This document shows, one piece after another, positions 41,453 to 52,235 of a DNA stretch of 64,000 nucleotides (the stretch's first letter is position 1; every line of letters starts with the position of its first letter). Source of the DNA: an uncultured Bacilli bacterium (lineage in GTDB: Bacteria; Bacillota_I; Bacilli_A; RFN20; CAG-826); the NCBI GenBank assembly GCA_944363525.1, contig CALVUF010000005.1:1-64000 (forward strand). The letters are read 5' to 3'. The notes below the pieces were generated by a model. That model saw nothing but the letters and a program-made list of their open reading frames with translations, had not been told where the DNA came from and did not search any database. The position numbers and the translations under genes are program-made.

Positions 41453-42331
41453 TCAGATGAGTTGGATGAAGAAGGAGGCGGCGTTATAAAGGATGTGGGC
41501 GGTCGTTGACCCCTCAATCCCGAACTTGTCATAGCAGATGGACAAGGCGATCCCGCCGAATAGATAAGAGGGCAGATTGACCAATTCAACGATCATCGCC
41601 GTCCCGCCTTCGTTGAAGCAGCCGAAGTCGAAGTGGATGAAGGCGAAGATGATGATGGTGAGAATATAGGCCAATGGTTTGCCGAATCGAGCCAAGAAGG
41701 AGAAGAGCCCTGCTCGGTAGCCAAGTTCCTCGGTCACCGGCCCGATGATGGAGAGAAGGAAGAAGGCCCCGACTGGCACCGTTTCGATCATCGTATTGAG
41801 GACCGACTGGTTGGCGTTGTTGGTGGAACCGTCAATCCCTAAGAAAGCATAGACCGGGCTTATGACCAACAAGGAATAAACGATCCCGACGATGAATAGG
41901 CTGATGGCGAACACGATGCCGATCAAGACATTTTTATAACGCTTGAACCGTTCGAAGTAGGACCTCCAGTCCTTAAAGAGGATAAGCCCCATCGATAGGA
42001 GGACCAATAAATAGGCGATGAGCATGTAGACGAAGTTCACCGAGCCCGAAGAAAGATAGGCGTTTAATTGGTCGCTGTCCCAGCCAGGATTCTGCCCTTT
42101 GACCACCGCGACTAAGATTAGAGCGACGATCTCGGAGAAGATCGATAAGCCAATTAGCGAGCAGGCCAATAAGCCGATCTGCTTATAGACATTAAGCGGC
42201 AGAAAATCCTTGAAGATGACCCGGGCCCGGGTATCGGGATTCGGGGTCCCGCATTCAGGGCAACGAACCGCTTGAGGGTCGAGCTTATGATGGCAGTGAG
42301 GGCAACTGGTCGGTCGAAGATAGGTTTTCAC
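41453..42331 (-). CDS. CPBP-family membrane protease with N-terminal zinc ribbon
   Basis: The protein has 292 residues and starts at GTG 42331 (MKTYLRP). Cysteines CPHCHHK..CPECGT form a zinc ribbon in residues 11-28. About seven membrane helices follow. The CPBP/Abi motif 1 is GPVTEELGYRAGLF and motif 2 is FAFIHFDF; motif 3 (N-x3-D/H) may lie in the LYNAASFF region. Such proteins process prenylated or membrane proteins and often give bacteriocin self-immunity. A TATATT box ends 7 nt before the GTG, suggesting a leaderless start. Confidence 0.85.
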   Translation of the reverse strand: MKTYLRPTSCPHCHHKLDPQAVRCPECGTPNPDTRARVIFKDFLPLNVYKQIGLLACSLIGLSIFSEIVALILVAVVKGQNPGWDSDQLNAYLSSGSVNFVYMLIAYLLVLLSMGLILFKDWRSYFERFKRYKNVLIGIVFAISLFIVGIVYSLLVISPVYAFLGIDGSTNNANQSVLNTMIETVPVGAFFLLSIIGPVTEELGYRAGLFSFLARFGKPLAYILTIIIFAFIHFDFGCFNEGGTAMIVELVNLPSYLFGGIALSICYDKFGIEGSTTAHILYNAASFFIQLI

Positions 42332-43149: not shown

Positions 43150-43178
43150 TTGAGGTTTCGGTTTTCGCCCACCATAAT
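43150..43178 (+). promoter_or_regulatory. Promoter giving a leaderless start at 43186
   Basis: TTGAGG (43150-43155), 17 nt, CATAAT (43173-43178), 7 nt, ATG 43186. It decides the start: an upstream in-frame TTG at 43150 is the -35 box itself. Confidence 0.6.
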
Positions 43179-43185
43179 TACCCAT

Positions 43186-46100
43186 ATGAACCTGGCCACA
43201 TTTTTGTCTGTGAATTCGGAGGACATCCTCCGTTACCTCGATATCGGTTTGAACGTCGCCTTCTTCGGGATCTTGGGGGTCCTGGTCTTCCTCTTCCTCT
43301 GGGGTTTGCTCCATGGTTGGCGATATGGGACTTACCATTTGATTTTCGTCGGCGGGCTCTGCGTCATCGGGATGCTGACGGTCTCGCCCCTAGGCGATAT
43401 GCTGGCCAAACTCGATCTTTCCTCTTTCGGCATTCCGGAAGTCGTCGTCAATATCGGCGACTTTTCGGCGAGCCTTCATGTCACCACCCTATCCGAAACC
43501 TTGACCGATTTCTTTACTAAACTCTTGCTCCATTATGGGGTCTCGGCTTCGGCGGAAGACATCGTCGTCTACGCAACCGCCCTCGCGGCCTCGACCGTCA
43601 AGTTCCTCCTTATCTTCGTCGAAGGCTTGCTCATCATGATCGTCGGGTCGCTATTGGCTTGGCTTTTATGGCATATTTGCTTCAAGTTCCTTTTCAACCG
43701 GAAAGTCAAAGTCACCGAATACCCCAATGGACCCGATGGGGAAGCGGTCGTCATGAAGAAACGGCGGAAAAGAAAGCTTCGCTGGGTCTCGGGCTTAGAA
43801 CACGTCGTCTGCGGCGGCCTGATCATGGTCATGCTTCTGACTCCCTTCACCGCCTTGGTCAACACGGTCAATAACCATCTGGAGATCGATGAATCCTCGG
43901 CCAAAACCGATGAGACGGTCGGGATGGTTTACGATGTCCTTGAGGCTTATGACGAATCGACTTTCGCCAAGGTCTTCTTCAACTGGACCCGGAACGACGG
44001 GACCGAGACCCTCGATTCGAAACTCATCTCCTTCCTAACCAAAACCGATGCCGCCGGGATGAAAGTCGATCTCATCACCGAGTTGGCTTCCATCGCTGAC
44101 GTCGGCTCCTCGATCCTCAATTCCGGGGTCATGGCCATGATCGGGGAGGATGGGATCGCCTGGCATTCGATCCTCGCCTCGATGATTATCCCGAACCTCA
44201 TCAGCAAGCTCACCAGCGTCTCCCTAGTGAAAATCGCTTTGCCGGTCGCGGTGACGATTGCCCTTAATCTCGATCAAGCCAAAGCCATCTTAGGAGAGGA
44301 CGCCGTCGCTTATTTGACTAATCAGAATTACGATTGGGCCAATGAACTCAACAATTTAAGCGCCTTCTACGTTGATTTGCTTAACGCCGGCTTCTTCGAA
44401 GTCATCGCCGATGAGGTGTCTGAGACCCCGATCTTTAACCTCGCCCAGCTTTACGCCATGTTCGAGGATGAAGATGCCTATAAATCCATGCATGCTGCCC
44501 TCGACAAGGCTGACACCGATCTCGTCAACCACCTGATCGCCGGGGCCGTCTATACTATGGCTAAGAACCAAGAAACTAGCGAGGATTCCTTCTCCCTTCG
44601 GATGTTCGTCCAACCCGATAAGGGCGCCCCGCTGGATTACTACCAGATCGCCAATATCTCCTGGTTCCAAGAACTCGGCATCATCTACGATTCCTTCTAC
44701 AGCCTCGTCGATATCGACCGAGAGGCGATGAAGGAGATGTTCGATGGGCTCGGGACGACCGCCGATGTCCAGACGCTTTCTCGGCAAAACCAAAATCAAT
44801 CCGCCTCTTCCGATGAAGGCGACGAGGACAAACTGCTCGGTGGGGGAATCATCGGGACCTTGCTCACCATGGTCATCGACCATCCGGAGGAAGTCATCTC
44901 GGTCTTGGTCGGTCCGCGGGACGCGGAGGGCAACCCGACCGGCGTCGATCTCAATACCGGCATCTCAACCGGAAAGAAGAACCTCTTCGATTCGGTCTTG
45001 ATCGGCAACGCATTAGACGACTTGCTCCCGGTCCTTGAGCCGATGGTCAATAACCAAGGGAATATCAAGATCGATTTAGAATCCGCCAACGCGCAACTGG
45101 TTGATGAAAATAGCATCGGGGTCACCCGGGTCAACTTCAAAAAGGAATTCGGGGCGGTCATGGACATCGCTGCCGAATTAGCCTCGAACGAAGCCGGCAA
45201 AGAATTCCTCCTTAATCCCAATACTCAGCCGGGTGTTAATTACGATCCCGAAGGGAACCTCTATTCCATCGAAGCGGATTTATTGGATGCTTTAATCAAT
45301 ACCTGCGAGGACATTGACCGCTCAATCATCCTTTCCTCAGCCTTACCAGGCGTCCTTGAATCCTCGATGGAGGACTTCGACCTAAGCCAATATGGCATCG
45401 CCAAACTTGACTTCCACGCCCCGAACTTAGGCCACGAGGCGGCCAACATCTTGAGAATGGCCAAGTATTGCCCCTTATTGGTCTCTTCTTTCTCTTCTAT
45501 CTCCAAGATGGGGACGGCGGCGATGGGGTCGTTCTTGCTCTCGGCTCAGGAGGAACTTTGCTACATCTTCGACACCTTCCTGAATTCCAAAGTATTAAAT
45601 CCCATTACTCTCGATGAAGACGGAAATGAAGTGAAGAACGCCAACTTCTGCGGGCTTATCAACAAATTGATCTCGCAAATCGATAGCAACGGGACCTTCA
45701 CTGAATTGACCACTGAAGACCTCGATGGCATTCCTAATCTCACCTCCTCTTGGATTGAAGGGGACATCGATCAATCGAAACCGAAAGGCGAGACTTATCA
45801 AATGGTCAATGCCCTTTGCTCGGTCTTACGCAGCGGCCTCCTCGATAAGCTTGATTCCTTAAGCAATGGGGACACCGCGAACGCCTTCAGCCAGCTTTCG
45901 GGATTGAAGATCGATGACGTGTTCGCCGCCATCGGGGACTCGGTCATCCTTTCCAAACTCGCCGGCGGGGCCCTAGATGGATACCTCGTTGTCCCGATCC
46001 TTGGGGTTGGAGGCGAGGATGGGCTCGACCTTCCGATCAGTTTTAAAAACGTTACCGACTGGGCGGCCGAAGGGGCGGCGTTCCAAAAAGTCATCGACTT

Positions 46101-49100
46101 AGCCTCTAAAGGCTTAGACTTATCGAACCTCGACTTCTTCGCCTTAGGGCCGGATCTTGGCGATTTGCTTAAAGCCTTATCGGGTTCGGGCATCTTCACC
46201 TATACCGAGTCCGGGGTCAGCGAATACGTCTTCCCCGAATATCTTTACAACAAATTGCTCCTCTCGACAGACGGGGAGACTTTAAAGTACTTCCTCGATC
46301 CGGATTTCGAAGGGGACGTCGCCTCCTTAACCACCTTGGAGGAGAAACAAGCGGCTACGACCTTGCTCTATCTCGATATGGTCGAGCAGCTTTCGACCGA
46401 AGAGGACTGGAACGGGAAGCAAGGCGAGATCGACCGGCTGACCAACGTCTTGGATTCGCTTAACCAACTCGGCGGGGTTGAGGAACTCTCCAACCTCGAC
46501 TTCGACAACCTTTCCCCGATGGAAGAGGCCTTAAGCGGAGTCGCCGAAAGCCACGCCCTCGGCCGGGTCATCCTTTATAACGGCTTGAAGAACGCTTTCG
46601 CCGGGATGGAAGGGGCGGAAGATTCGCCGATTGATTTCTCCGCCATCAACTACTCTTACTTCCTCCATGCCGATCCCGTCAGCGGCCATCTCGCCATCTT
46701 AACTGAAAAAGAACGGCAGGCCAACGTCGATGAGGTTTCCAATCTATTTTCCGTCTTCGCCGTCCTCCTCGATCCGTCTTATGGGCTCGTGAATGAGGAC
46801 GGGCAGCTCGACGCCAGCCGGATTTCCCTCTCGAGCCTTTCGACCGATTTCCTCCTCCGCCCATTATTGGACGGGGCCAGCGAAAGCCATTTGCTTAACC
46901 AATCCCCTTCATCGGAAAAGACCCCGGTCTTCAAACAATTGGTCGAAACTATCCTGATCGAATCGGGGATTTATGGGATCGACGAGGCGATCGAGGACAA
47001 AGCCGAGGCCTTGTTTGACCAAGAGCATACCGACATGACCATCGCCAAGATCGTCGAGGGGATCGAAGATTGGGATAAAGAGATCGATAATCTTTGCCTC
47101 CTCATCGACACTATCCAGTCCTCCTCCTTCATCGATGAGGGCGGGGAGCTTGATTTCAGCGCCCTCTCTTCCCCGGATTCTTATTTCGCGAGCAACGCCG
47201 AGGCTAAGAAGAGAGAACTCAAGACCATACTCTCCTCCCTCGACGACTCGAAGCTGTTCTACCGGGCCTTGCCACAGCTGCTTAACGATGTCTTCTTCCC
47301 CGAATCAGGCGGGCCGTTGATCGAAGGGGAGATGGGGCAATTCCTCGCTGACGTCGACCCCTTCTTCACCGCCTATGCCGATAATGGGGTAAAAGACTAT
47401 GACCCGTATGGCGAGGAGCAGATCGATTATCTAGTCAATATGATGGGATCGCTATCCTCCCTTTCCTCAATCGACCTCGCCGATCTTTCCTCGATCGACG
47501 CCGAGGGGTTGACCTTGGCCTTGGAGCAGATGATGCGCTCGGGCCTATTCAATGGAAACAAACATAACGAAGCCACCGGCCTCAACGCCTTCCAAGGGCT
47601 CATCAAGCAGATCGTCTCGATCGAGGCCTTGGAACAGTATTTCTATTACGTTGGCGAAGATGGCGCCGGTTCGCCGAAAGACTTGGCCAATAATACGCTT
47701 TATTCGCAATATGACCCCGTTGACCTCGCTAACGGCAAAGCCATCTATTTGGTTAAGGAGGCCTTCCCGACCCTTTATGACGGGAATGAAAACGAATTGG
47801 ATCAACAAGCCCTCTTGCTCGACGGGGATGAAGGATCGCTTCTTTCCTTGCTGACCCTTTTCCAATCCGACGAGGTCAAGCCTCTTCTCAATAGCGAGGG
47901 GGTCTTCGATTTCTCCTCCATCCGGCCCGACCTCTTCGTCGACTTGCTCAAAGCCTTAAACGATTCCCCGCTTTTCTACGACTGCGTCCCCAATATCATC
48001 GACTCGACTTTGAATCAGCCGGATTTCTTAATCAAGGGCATCGACTTCACCAAAGCCAACGTCTATTTCTCCTATTATTACGATCAAGACGGCCATATGC
48101 TCACCACCCCCGATTACGCCAACCGCTTCGAGGAGAGCGAGATTTATCAACTGTCCTCGATTCTCTCGAATTTGTCCCGCAATAGCGAGGCCCTCGGGAA
48201 CTTGACCAACCTCTCATCCATCGATCCGGTCACCTTCCGCGAGATCCTCACCGACATGTACAACTCCCGGGTCTTCCATAATGACGGGGTCTTAGTCGTT
48301 GCCGATTATCAAGGGCCCAGCTGGAACGAAGGCCAATTCGTTTTCGATGACCTGACCGTCTTCGAACAGCTTATCTATACCGTTTATGACCATTCGTCTT
48401 TGGCTTCGCTTAACTATAGCCTTGAAGGCGACCCCGCCCTTTACCTCACCCATAAGGAAACTGGTTATCAGGAGAAACTCTATCAGCAGATAAAAGAGCA
48501 AAGGAGGCCTGGTTGGACCAAGGAAATCAATAACCTGACCGACGATGGGCAAGGCGGCGGCCTGCTCACCGTCTTCCTCCGTTCCGGCTTCATCGATGAG
48601 AAAGGGGCTTTGACCTTCTCCGGCGATGAGATCATGAAATTGCCGCCGGATGATTTAGAGGGTATATTCCTCGCCCTCAATAAGCTCGATCTAGGGGGCG
48701 ACATCCTGCCTAACGCCCTCCAAGACGTCCTTTCCTCGGTCGGGCTCACCAAATTCACCCGCCCGGAAGAGGCTATGACGGTCGAACCTGCTATTGTTGG
48801 GGGAGATTACTCCTATGACCTCGGGGCAGTCGCCGGCAATATGGTTTCCGGTGGCCATCCTTTGACGATCAGCCTCGATAAATTACCTTCGGAATATTCC
48901 CTTAAGGCCATTGATTTGAATATCGATTACACCGATTTCATCGTTACTTCCAACCCGAAGAACATCGACGTCTCGGCCTTAAGCGGCCACCTGGTATTCA
49001 CCGCCAATGAGTCTTTGGAGGTGAAGCTCACCTATGACCTTTCGAGCTATCGCTATACCCAAGCTGAGTTAGGGAATAAGGATATCGATTTGATCATCAA

Positions 49101-50289
49101 TCTCCTAGAGAGCATTTACACCGAAGGGGAAGACGGCCAAAGCGGCTCTTACTTCGACTTCGGCTCCGTCCCCGATGGCTATGACGTCATGACCGCCTTC
49201 ACCGAACAAGGCCATCACACCTACGACCTCTTGACCTTCATGCAGCAAACTAGCATCTTCGAAAATCCGGTCGTTTACGATGTGGATTCCGATGCTTATT
49301 ATCCGACCCTCAATAGTTCGGCGAACACCTTCACCAGCCGCGACTACGCGCTTTACCACATCTTCACCTTGGATCTGAAATTCGGCTCTTCCGCCAATCA
49401 AGAAACACCTAAGGCTTCGATCTTCAATCGGCTCGATAGGCATGACCGCTCGATGGTCGGGGCCATCAAAGCCCTAAATTCCGCGCTTGGCAAAGAGGGC
49501 GATTATCCCGACTTAACCGCCGATTCCCTTTACGTCGATGACCATATCGTCGACCTCGCCTTCGTCGAGGGCTACGTCTTGGAGATCGAATCCTTGACCA
49601 AGGGATTAGGCGATGGCCATACGGCTAACGAAACGGTCTATATGAAATTGATTGGACTTAATCAAATCGCCCGGATTCCGATGGTTACCGCCGTCGATGC
49701 CTTCTCGCCTTTTGCATCAGTCGGCGAAAAGGGAGATCCGGTCCTCTTCAATAACATCTTGGCCGGGGAGATGGACGCCATCTATAACGTCCTGGTCAAG
49801 ACCGATTATATTAATCATAACGTTGGGCTAGGAACTAACGGGGCGAATCCGTCTGGGCTGTACACCAATGCCGATATCACGGCAGGTTCTTACGAAACCC
49901 TCGGTTCTTTCTATGATGACTGGATGGAACTAATTTACGAAGGATCGGCCCAAAAGGTCTTCTATGGCAATCTGATGGCCTATGCCTTCACCGATGAGAG
50001 CATCGCCTCTAATTCACCCGAATTAGGGCGCGAGGGGTTAGAGGCTTTGAAGGAGCTCAATACCTACTTCGATTATGCGCAGGAAGGCACCGTCTTCAAA
50101 AGCGGCAAAGAAAAACTCGCGATGCTCTCGAGCTATCTCTATCTGTCCTTGCCTTATTCGGGAATCGCCTCGAATCCGAGCTTGTCCAGTTTGACCCAAT
50201 TCAATGATTTCAAAGTCGGGGGCAGTCAAGTCGACTTTGTTCAGGTGGCGAAAGGCTTGGCCAGTTACGCCTCAATCAGTATTTCATGA
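43186..50289 (+). CDS. Giant repetitive membrane-anchored protein (2,367 residues)
   Basis: The N-terminal ~230 residues hold about four membrane helices with a CvpA-like feel (FFGILGVLVFLFLWGLLHGW, STVKFLLIFVEGLLIMIVG) and a basic cytosolic loop (MKKRRKRKLRW). The remaining ~2,100 residues are probably extracytoplasmic. They are acidic, rich in D, S, L and N, and almost cysteine-free. They contain diverged repeats built around a pattern such as L-x2-LSSID, then a helix, then SPLFYDCVPNIIDSTL (compare DSKLFYRALPQLLNDVFF and LGGDILPNALQDVLSS). No enzyme motif, sortase signal or lipobox is visible. A beta-rich insert lies near residues 1860-1950. It may be an envelope scaffold or surface protein. 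The following YigZ gene overlaps by ATGA. Confidence 0.85.
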   Translation: MNLATFLSVNSEDILRYLDIGLNVAFFGILGVLVFLFLWGLLHGWRYGTYHLIFVGGLCVIGMLTVSPLGDMLAKLDLSSFGIPEVVVNIGDFSASLHVTTLSETLTDFFTKLLLHYGVSASAEDIVVYATALAASTVKFLLIFVEGLLIMIVGSLLAWLLWHICFKFLFNRKVKVTEYPNGPDGEAVVMKKRRKRKLRWVSGLEHVVCGGLIMVMLLTPFTALVNTVNNHLEIDESSAKTDETVGMVYDVLEAYDESTFAKVFFNWTRNDGTETLDSKLISFLTKTDAAGMKVDLITELASIADVGSSILNSGVMAMIGEDGIAWHSILASMIIPNLISKLTSVSLVKIALPVAVTIALNLDQAKAILGEDAVAYLTNQNYDWANELNNLSAFYVDLLNAGFFEVIADEVSETPIFNLAQLYAMFEDEDAYKSMHAALDKADTDLVNHLIAGAVYTMAKNQETSEDSFSLRMFVQPDKGAPLDYYQIANISWFQELGIIYDSFYSLVDIDREAMKEMFDGLGTTADVQTLSRQNQNQSASSDEGDEDKLLGGGIIGTLLTMVIDHPEEVISVLVGPRDAEGNPTGVDLNTGISTGKKNLFDSVLIGNALDDLLPVLEPMVNNQGNIKIDLESANAQLVDENSIGVTRVNFKKEFGAVMDIAAELASNEAGKEFLLNPNTQPGVNYDPEGNLYSIEADLLDALINTCEDIDRSIILSSALPGVLESSMEDFDLSQYGIAKLDFHAPNLGHEAANILRMAKYCPLLVSSFSSISKMGTAAMGSFLLSAQEELCYIFDTFLNSKVLNPITLDEDGNEVKNANFCGLINKLISQIDSNGTFTELTTEDLDGIPNLTSSWIEGDIDQSKPKGETYQMVNALCSVLRSGLLDKLDSLSNGDTANAFSQLSGLKIDDVFAAIGDSVILSKLAGGALDGYLVVPILGVGGEDGLDLPISFKNVTDWAAEGAAFQKVIDLASKGLDLSNLDFFALGPDLGDLLKALSGSGIFTYTESGVSEYVFPEYLYNKLLLSTDGETLKYFLDPDFEGDVASLTTLEEKQAATTLLYLDMVEQLSTEEDWNGKQGEIDRLTNVLDSLNQLGGVEELSNLDFDNLSPMEEALSGVAESHALGRVILYNGLKNAFAGMEGAEDSPIDFSAINYSYFLHADPVSGHLAILTEKERQANVDEVSNLFSVFAVLLDPSYGLVNEDGQLDASRISLSSLSTDFLLRPLLDGASESHLLNQSPSSEKTPVFKQLVETILIESGIYGIDEAIEDKAEALFDQEHTDMTIAKIVEGIEDWDKEIDNLCLLIDTIQSSSFIDEGGELDFSALSSPDSYFASNAEAKKRELKTILSSLDDSKLFYRALPQLLNDVFFPESGGPLIEGEMGQFLADVDPFFTAYADNGVKDYDPYGEEQIDYLVNMMGSLSSLSSIDLADLSSIDAEGLTLALEQMMRSGLFNGNKHNEATGLNAFQGLIKQIVSIEALEQYFYYVGEDGAGSPKDLANNTLYSQYDPVDLANGKAIYLVKEAFPTLYDGNENELDQQALLLDGDEGSLLSLLTLFQSDEVKPLLNSEGVFDFSSIRPDLFVDLLKALNDSPLFYDCVPNIIDSTLNQPDFLIKGIDFTKANVYFSYYYDQDGHMLTTPDYANRFEESEIYQLSSILSNLSRNSEALGNLTNLSSIDPVTFREILTDMYNSRVFHNDGVLVVADYQGPSWNEGQFVFDDLTVFEQLIYTVYDHSSLASLNYSLEGDPALYLTHKETGYQEKLYQQIKEQRRPGWTKEINNLTDDGQGGGLLTVFLRSGFIDEKGALTFSGDEIMKLPPDDLEGIFLALNKLDLGGDILPNALQDVLSSVGLTKFTRPEEAMTVEPAIVGGDYSYDLGAVAGNMVSGGHPLTISLDKLPSEYSLKAIDLNIDYTDFIVTSNPKNIDVSALSGHLVFTANESLEVKLTYDLSSYRYTQAELGNKDIDLIINLLESIYTEGEDGQSGSYFDFGSVPDGYDVMTAFTEQGHHTYDLLTFMQQTSIFENPVVYDVDSDAYYPTLNSSANTFTSRDYALYHIFTLDLKFGSSANQETPKASIFNRLDRHDRSMVGAIKALNSALGKEGDYPDLTADSLYVDDHIVDLAFVEGYVLEIESLTKGLGDGHTANETVYMKLIGLNQIARIPMVTAVDAFSPFASVGEKGDPVLFNNILAGEMDAIYNVLVKTDYINHNVGLGTNGANPSGLYTNADITAGSYETLGSFYDDWMELIYEGSAQKVFYGNLMAYAFTDESIASNSPELGREGLEALKELNTYFDYAQEGTVFKSGKEKLAMLSSYLYLSLPYSGIASNPSLSSLTQFNDFKVGGSQVDFVQVAKGLASYASISIS

Positions 50290-50888
50290 AAGAGGGTGAG
50301 AAGGTCATAACCGAAGAAGGCGCGGGGGAAGTTAGCATGCTTGGCTCCTCTTTCCTTTCCTTCGCTTTGCCTTGCCTAAGCAAAGATGAACTTGAATCCC
50401 AATTGGCGAGGATCCGCGCCCTGCACCATAAAGCCCACCATATCCCTTACGCTTTCCGGCTCGATGGAAGCGAAGGGTTCAGTGAGGATGGGGAGCCGAG
50501 CGGCTCCTCAGGGCGCCCGTTATTGGAATACCTTCGAAGCGAAAACGCCTATGGCCTATTAATCGTCGCCCGCTATTTTGGGGGCGTCAAACTCGGGGTC
50601 GGCAATCTCCGGCGGATGGTACTTGAAGCTGGGAAGCAAGCCTATTTTAACGCCAAGGTAGCGGTGATAAAGGAACGTTATCGATATCGCCTAAACGTCG
50701 ATTACGCCGTTTACGACTCCTTGGTTCGGCTCGGGCCAAGGTTCGGTTTCGATATTTCCGAACCGGTATTCGGGGAACGGGTTGAGTTGTCTTTATTAAG
50801 CGACGGGAATTTGGGCGAGCGGCTCGAGGGGAAGGGGCTCCGCTTGCCCCTAGGCGAGAGATTCCTCTCCCTCGTCGAGGAAAAATGA
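50286..50888 (+). CDS. yigZ: YigZ/IMPACT-family protein
   Basis: The protein has 200 residues. The family signature is EDGEPSGSSGRPLLEYL, preceded by HHKAHHIPYAFRL and followed by VARYFGGVKLGVGNLRR. The UPF0029 N-terminal domain is complete and a C-terminal ferredoxin-like half follows. Bacterial members are linked to translation or nucleic acid binding, but the role is not settled. The start codon overlaps the giant gene's stop (ATGA), so its expression depends on translation of that gene. Confidence 0.92.
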   Translation: MKEGEKVITEEGAGEVSMLGSSFLSFALPCLSKDELESQLARIRALHHKAHHIPYAFRLDGSEGFSEDGEPSGSSGRPLLEYLRSENAYGLLIVARYFGGVKLGVGNLRRMVLEAGKQAYFNAKVAVIKERYRYRLNVDYAVYDSLVRLGPRFGFDISEPVFGERVELSLLSDGNLGERLEGKGLRLPLGERFLSLVEEK

Positions 50889-50963
50889 GATTATTCAATT
50901 TCCATATACACGCGGGCGTTAAGTTGCGTACAATTTAGCAGTCAATAGAAGGGGAGGAAGGTT

Positions 50964-52235
50964 ATGAGCAGCCTCAACGAACTTGAAAACCGACGGAACG
51001 CCGTTTATGCCAAAATGGACGACGAATCCTTCGCCCTTTTCTTCTCCGGACGGGCCAAATACCTGTCCTCAACCACCTTTTATCCGTTCGAGGTCAATGC
51101 CGATTTTTATTATTTGACCGGGATTGAGCAGGAGGGATCGTCTTTATTGCTCATCAAGCGGGGCGGAGAGACCCGGACCATCCTATTCATCGACCAATAC
51201 GACGAGGCGAAGAGGCGCTGGTACGGGAAGCGGCTCACCCAAGAGGACGCCAGACGGATATCCGGCATCAATAACGTCATGCTTTCGGCTTACCTTTCCT
51301 CCCGGCTCGACCGTTTGCTTCGGCAAGGGATCGATGAGGAAAGCCCGGTCAACATCGGCTATTTCGACTTAAGCCCCGAGCTTAAGGTCGACCGGGAGCT
51401 CGATTCGAAGTCCTTCGCTTCCGCCCTCCAAGCCGTCTATCCCTCCTTATTGGTCAAGCCGGTCAAGCCACTTATCGCCCCGTTAAGGAAATGCAAAAGC
51501 GATGAGGAGATCGCCTCGATCAAGAAAGCCATCGGCCACGTCAAAGACGGCTTACTTAACGCTTATTCCCTTCTTTCCCCGGGGGTTTATGAATATGACC
51601 TCGGCTTAGCCTATTTGGCTTCTAGCGAATCGACCTCGGGCCTAGCCGGCATGGCCGAGCCCCTGTTCATCGCCCAAGGGAGCGAAGCCAATTGCCTAGT
51701 CTCTCAGAAGCCCAAAGAGAAAATCCGGAAAGGGCAAGCGGTGGTCTTCGACGTCAATGCCCGGGATGAGCATTACTGCGCCTCCATCGCCAGGACCGTC
51801 CCGGTCGACGGCAAGTTCAGCGACCGTCAATCGCTCATCTATTCGATCGTCTTGGATTGTCTAAAAAAGACCGGGGCTTTGCTTCGGCCTTTGCTAAGCG
51901 TCGAGAAGGTCAATGAGTTCGCCAGGGAAAGGCTTAAGGAACGCTGCCTCAAAGAGCAGATCATCGCCTCGCCTGAGGAGATCAACCTCCTGACCTTCCC
52001 CCGGGTCCTGTCCTATGTTGGTTTAGAGCTTTATGAGGACTATGAGGGGATGACCCTCCAAGAAGGGGATGTGGTGGCGTTGGATATCGGCCTTTACCTC
52101 GATAAGGAGGATATCGCTATCCGGCTAAAGGATATGTATATGATCACCGGGACCGGGTCCCGTTTACTAAGCGAAGGCATCGCCATCGAGCAAGACGATT
52201 TAGAGAACCATTTCAAACTGAAAAGAGGCATTTAA
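50964..52235 (+). CDS. M24-family protein, probable inactive aminopeptidase
   Basis: The protein has 423 residues and follows the PepP layout: AMP_N-like domain (FFSGRAKYLSSTTFYPFEVN, FYYLTGIEQEG) and a creatinase/aminopeptidase C-half. The five metal ligands of M24 enzymes are poorly kept. The first Asp is present (VVFDVNARDE). The second is replaced (CASIART for the usual S/GDITRT). The catalytic His region reads LSYVGLELYED (H to Y). The fourth ligand Glu is Asp (ALDIGLYL) and the fifth is Lys (AIRLKDMY). So 4 of 5 ligands differ, and metal-dependent peptidase activity is unlikely. GGGAGGAAGG precedes the ATG. It is operonic with the PTS gene 1 nt downstream. Confidence 0.85.
   Translation: MSSLNELENRRNAVYAKMDDESFALFFSGRAKYLSSTTFYPFEVNADFYYLTGIEQEGSSLLLIKRGGETRTILFIDQYDEAKRRWYGKRLTQEDARRISGINNVMLSAYLSSRLDRLLRQGIDEESPVNIGYFDLSPELKVDRELDSKSFASALQAVYPSLLVKPVKPLIAPLRKCKSDEEIASIKKAIGHVKDGLLNAYSLLSPGVYEYDLGLAYLASSESTSGLAGMAEPLFIAQGSEANCLVSQKPKEKIRKGQAVVFDVNARDEHYCASIARTVPVDGKFSDRQSLIYSIVLDCLKKTGALLRPLLSVEKVNEFARERLKERCLKEQIIASPEEINLLTFPRVLSYVGLELYEDYEGMTLQEGDVVALDIGLYLDKEDIAIRLKDMYMITGTGSRLLSEGIAIEQDDLENHFKLKRGI

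Follow-up and report, generated by a model that had tools for sequence, protein, structure and literature searches.

The locus described here raises the question of what kind of protein a very large and repetitive gene product is, where in the cell it would be displayed, and whether its size means that the bacterium depends on it. The gene lies in a window of 64,000 nucleotides, the whole stretch of DNA that we analysed, from an uncultured member of the Bacilli. A reading of the sequence alone had described the product as a 2,367-residue repetitive envelope protein of unknown type. This description held: the frame is open throughout (an in-frame TTG at 43150 is an alternative start that would add 12 residues), the product is repetitive, and we found no membership in a known large-protein family, with no significant match in Pfam, NCBIfam, PHROGs, PADLOC or the sequences of solved structures. 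These same searches matched no enzyme family and nothing from the defence (PADLOC) or phage (PHROGs) libraries, and scanning the full-length protein and its distal half with Pfam gave no family in the ectodomain. The C-terminus (...KGLASYASISIS) had neither a sorting motif nor a hydrophobic tail by sequence and hydropathy, and beyond residue 228 the protein has a net charge of -216 and 7 cysteines in 2,139 residues; the scarcity of cysteines and the lack of an enzyme motif and of a wall-sorting signal had all been correctly anticipated. The genome (1.57 Mb, 9 contigs) carries a single copy of the giant gene. This copy is undamaged, keeps its synteny and shows purifying selection: compared with the related genome G065, the first 1,200 residues have a dN/dS of 0.12-0.15.

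Table 1. Features of the giant gene and its neighbourhood in the window.
Feature	Coordinates	Strand	Basis or remark
CPBP/Rce1-like intramembrane protease	41453..42331	-	PF02517; conserved divergent neighbour
XRE helix-turn-helix protein with TM helices	42497..43123	+	HTH_3; local neighbour only
Giant gene	43186..50289	+	2,367 aa from ATG at 43186; single open frame
CvpA-like four-helix membrane module, residues 1-232	43186..43881	+	Hydropathy, profile comparison, Colicin_V on relatives
Basic loop ahead of last TM helix, residues 172-200	43699..43785	+	Sequence and alignment; predicted cytoplasmic by the positive-inside rule
Repeat array, residues 257-2290	43954..50055	+	~16 mostly helical repeats, spacing roughly 82-188 residues
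Repeat block, residues 556-1041	44851..46308	+	High-confidence model
Recombinant-looking tract	46730..51200	.	Distal half of giant, YigZ, start of Xaa-Pro aminopeptidase gene
Insert between repeats, residues ~1851-1950	48736..49035	+	Poorly conserved; in about a third of homologues
YigZ/UPF0029 gene	50286..50888	+	4-base overlap with the giant's stop

Most of the protein is a repeat array. Self-comparison of a profile built from 36 full-length homologues revealed internal homology along residues 257-2290 (best off-diagonal E 5e-57, at an offset of ~258 residues). A transitive repeat map drifted to almost all residues and direct mapping was used instead, giving 16 register points at residues 258 (placed by eye), 345, 445, 603, 713, 801, 919, 1001, 1122, 1234, 1355, 1452, 1594, 1694, 1834 and 2022. 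The repeats share the motif LxxLLxxL(N/D)(D/N)SxLF or, in fuller form, hydrophobic-x-x-Leu-Leu-x-x-Leu-(N/D)-(D/N)-Ser-x-(L/I)-(F/L), whose serine was found in 81% of the register-point cells of the 36 homologues; random positions gave 9%, and the highest value among 500 draws was 20%. Profile self-comparison and helical models agree on the ~2,100 residues of diverged helical repeats that the sequence-only reading had proposed, and the recurring pattern that it had quoted, SPLFYDCVPNIID, is repeat 13 of the 16. Pfam detected DUF7212 (2e-7) and DUF5332 (1e-6) in the distal halves of two of the 36 family members each; the scan of the window giant found neither of them, nor any known binding domain at its distal end.

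Structure prediction in pieces, which had been recommended as a check, was run on residues 1-1190 and 556-1041 and yielded helical repeats without a solved relative. The larger model (pLDDT 78, pTM 0.54) was mostly helical, made of TM helices and helical repeats, and its search against the PDB returned generic helical scaffolds only. The model of residues 556-1041, based on 57 sequences, reached pLDDT 85.9 and pTM 0.81; it had no significant relative in the PDB (best E 0.52 with Foldseek, best Z 3.7 with VIA) and gave nothing significant against BFVD (best E 0.98). Matches this poor are unusual when a helical model is so confident, although this does not in itself prove a new fold.

Hydropathy placed four TM segments ahead of the repeats, at residues ~17-45, 48-71, 125-170 and 200-228. 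The Pfam model Colicin_V (PF02674) exceeded its gathering cut-off on three giant relatives at the level of the class (G317:C69, G282:C19 and G357:C3, with frames of 1,619, 846 and 1,105 aa, respectively), where its matches coincided with the positions matched by the giant profile. Three of 36 giant relatives matched it weakly (best 0.013), and the window giant itself showed no Colicin_V match at E<=1, short of the gathering cut-off. Profile comparison of 24 canonical CvpA proteins, trimmed, gave 96.9% over 141 columns against 14 giants of the class and 93.2% over 74 columns against 25 giants of the family, whereas controls with reversed profiles and five unrelated families gave at most 16.3%. 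An untrimmed comparison (99% probability) was discarded, since reversed sequences and unrelated membrane families scored likewise. Colicin_V on relatives, the trimmed profiles and the four TM helices all support the CvpA-like four-helix anchor recognised in the sequence-only reading. The assignment is transitive, via relatives, and we call the giant only CvpA-like because the window protein alone fails the Pfam model: it would possess a CvpA-like module and be no formal member of the family. The same genome encodes a separate standalone CvpA (G000:C2:209795-210376, 254-aa frame).

In MarP, four N-terminal TM helices are followed by a domain that lies in the periplasm (PMC4992679). From this analogy and the basic loop that precedes the fourth helix of the giant, we infer that the repeats are outside the cell, which would put both ends of the protein outside as well. 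The envelope location initially proposed would fit this topology.

The giant has many relatives. With the window protein as query, matches were found in 55 of 146 genomes of the family, and the giant profile matched 158 of 279 genomes of the order at E<=1e-3; 136 of these matches were strong and 22 weak (E above 1e-20), the latter often with the CvpA-like part alone. Matches continued in 98 of 296 genomes of the class and in 56 of 295 of a phylum sample, all of the same class among the matches listed. Judged by sequence similarity, the giant is a member of a broad uncharacterised family with weaker relatives across the class; we found no paper on CvpA-anchored giant repeat proteins in the open PMC literature. 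At the same locus, its length varies within the order from 1,292 to 3,907 aa, and the longest open frame of a relative has at least 6,049 aa (L155, running off its stretch). The family also shows several unusual arrangements. In seven of the 12 matching f28 genomes (G372, G378, G384, G438, G490, G508 and G520) two neighbouring giant frames, of ~0.9-1.35 and 2.2-2.9 thousand aa, occur on one contig as if paired. In family f12, a 1,001-aa CvpA-like gene directly precedes a 4,800-aa giant (L156, 1422-19064). Frames of ~280-300 aa in G049, G026, G070 and other g26 genomes match the giant profile in its CvpA-like part alone.

The neighbours of the gene were identified by Pfam. The order CPBP < > giant > YigZ was kept through three families: among the 40 family loci counted, out of 41 prepared (L061 left out), a divergent CPBP gene was present at most two genes upstream of the giant in 38, and YigZ followed downstream in 31, two loci (L067 and L071) reaching the end of their stretch. 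The corresponding numbers were 30 and 29 in 33 further loci that included two other families of the order. Giant and YigZ were at most 8 bases apart in 22 of 29 measured cases. The membrane-bound XRE gene was found upstream in only three of the 40 family loci and in none of the 33 others, and it was ruled out as a functional partner on these counts. From 32 genomes selected for having no strong giant match, we also examined 20 at their YigZ locus. CPBP and YigZ were directly adjacent in 19 of these 20 giant-less family genomes, with gaps of up to 114 bases (negative values stem from over-long starts). Since YigZ keeps its place in genomes devoid of the giant, it does not depend on it and was likewise discarded as a functional partner. 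Of the two genes that had been called odd companions, XRE is consequently not a companion at all, and YigZ is a conserved and often overlapping neighbour, yet an independent one.

The giant is cleanly absent from many relatives, including some of the same genus, which leaves the earlier argument that a protein this large must be costly and so important without support. A conserved locus together with clean absences implies an old gene, vertically kept: the giant is conserved but dispensable. Two genomes differ from the simple alternation of presence and absence. In the one exception among the 20 giant-less genomes, L179 (4161-8721) has four genes without Pfam match exactly at the giant's place, three of them with signal-like starts by eye. 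G019 (L043, L068) has a copy of 2,190 aa away from the usual locus, where a piece of 619 aa stands.

The gene of the window also looks like a mosaic. Along the tract at ~46,730-51,200, identity was mostly 91-97% to G065 and 61-81% to G127; outside it the order was reversed, with a backbone closer to G127 than to G065. From these sequence comparisons, a related species looks like the partner in an exchange of the distal half of the giant and YigZ. The left junction is rich in informative sites, an argument against an assembly chimera that does not exclude one, and a single tract that also holds YigZ is no proof of selection on the giant. Among 36 close pairs, which are not independent, the last 30% of the giant was less identical than the first 30% in 31; the pair formed by the window and G065 belongs to the five that depart from this, owing to the recombinant-looking tract. 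This distal divergence is only moderately above that of neighbouring membrane proteins. In the sister species G127, the giant (L032, 7391-14479) is broken near residue 1,093, by decay or assembly error, which leaves two frames (1,093 and 1,235 aa); the break lies fairly close to the tract junction of the window.

We tentatively propose that the repeats adopt a helical fold absent from solved structures and that, together with the CvpA-like anchor, they would make up a family of giant surface rods that has so far gone unrecognised, with members of up to ~6,000 residues, vertically inherited since before several Bacilli lineages lost their wall, cleanly lost many times and with exchanged outer halves; we rate this whole scenario as appreciable but somewhat short of evenly balanced. 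For the giant itself, our preferred reading, held with moderate confidence, is that of a membrane-tethered extracellular helical rod with a diversifying outer half and a role in surface recognition or adhesion. The CvpA-like module would anchor the protein in the cytoplasmic membrane, leaving both of its ends on the outside, and the ~2,100 acidic, cysteine-poor residues would form ~16 stacked, mostly helical repeats extending from the cell, their number setting the length that differs between species. The membrane-proximal half is conserved, and the distal half evolves faster and, in this genome, has apparently been swapped by recombination. The most likely role would be surface contact: the rod would recognise or adhere to host mucosa, neighbouring cells or particles, and be useful to the cell yet dispensable. 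Of this picture, the computations show the repeats, the homology of the anchor, the family, the synteny, the losses, the distal divergence and the mosaic, whereas we infer the placement outside the cell, the extended shape and the binding role.

Protection from bile and scaffolding are the main rivals of the surface-rod reading. Like standalone enteric CvpA, which EHEC, V. cholerae and V. parahaemolyticus need in order to resist deoxycholate (PMC6705877), the giant, with its CvpA-like anchor, might guard the membrane against bile salts and amphiphiles of that kind; the repeats would then serve as a shield or hydrophobic sleeve near the membrane. However, its own genome already holds a separate CvpA of 254 aa (G000:C2), and a faster-evolving distal half and clean losses within a genus fit a core stress function less well, making such an envelope-stress factor unlikely in our view. 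The repeats might instead bind partners along the membrane, so that the giant would be a scaffold or tether for another envelope complex, for instance with another giant or with the CPBP protease. The conserved position beside CPBP, the second giant that accompanies the first in seven of the 12 f28 genomes with a match and a generic weak similarity to eukaryotic helical scaffolds would agree with that. Nevertheless, CPBP and YigZ stay adjacent where the giant is missing and so show no dependence on it, and the structural similarity is not significant; we consider this role improbable.

A further idea, that the giant substitutes structurally for a lost wall as a protein coat stiffening a wall-less cell, starts from the biology of the host genome. 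The genome of the window (G000) has no PF00905 transpeptidase, and in view of this lack of penicillin-binding transpeptidases the source gut bacterium probably has no cell wall. This agrees with PMC10868615, which predicts the RFN20 families CAG-826 and CAG-288 to be peptidoglycan-deficient and reports srtA/B to be missing in RFN20, and with PMC7301438, which reports most RFN20 genomes to be without murG. Yet, among the 30 of 273 genomes of the order that have PF00905, 20 carry a strong giant and another 7 match weakly, which leaves 3 without any match (the samples for transpeptidase and giant differ slightly, 273 and 279 genomes), and many genomes without transpeptidase have no giant either. 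As the giant co-occurs with transpeptidases, it is no replacement for the wall; its presence in walled lineages largely refutes this idea, to which we attach very little probability.

The surface-rod reading would bear on the way in which RFN20-like gut Bacilli, which are uncultured, often wall-less and, according to PMC10868615, without sortases, display large proteins at their surface. If it is true, a conserved, membrane-anchored giant in about half of the genomes of the order would be a main candidate for the surface shown to host, phage and neighbours. Its clean presence or absence at one locus makes comparisons easy.

Among known systems, CvpA (Colicin_V, PF02674) shares with the giant the four N-terminal TM helices with a G..RG element. 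The TM helices of MarP are CvpA-like too, and Colicin_V is listed among the domains found with serine proteases. Where CvpA and MarP have a short tail or a protease, the giant has ~2,100 residues of repeats, and Pfam scans detected no MarP-type trypsin-like protease domain in the window protein. LPXTG cell-wall adhesins are likewise large, repetitive and surface-facing, but carry a C-terminal sorting signal with a hydrophobic tail, and the giant has neither. HEAT-type solenoids (karyopherins) show a weak, generic helical resemblance to the model of residues 1-1190 that is not significant (2bku_B, E 8e-3, TM 0.11-0.13), and the confident block 556-1041 alone gives a best PDB E of 0.52 and Z of 3.7. 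Giant1-3 of Apilactobacillus kunkeei differ from the window protein by an N-terminal beta-solenoid and a C-terminal DUF5776 (PMC12863079): residues 1-1190 of the latter model as TM helices and helical repeats, without such a solenoid, and Pfam found no DUF5776 either in the full-length protein or in its distal half. The word 'colicin' does not occur in that paper. With its helical repeats and an overall shape that is only predicted to be elongated, the window giant nonetheless resembles Giant1-3, which are described as extracellular proteins of several thousand residues made mostly of elongated alpha-helical repeats, under purifying selection and with intragenic recombination (PMC12863079).
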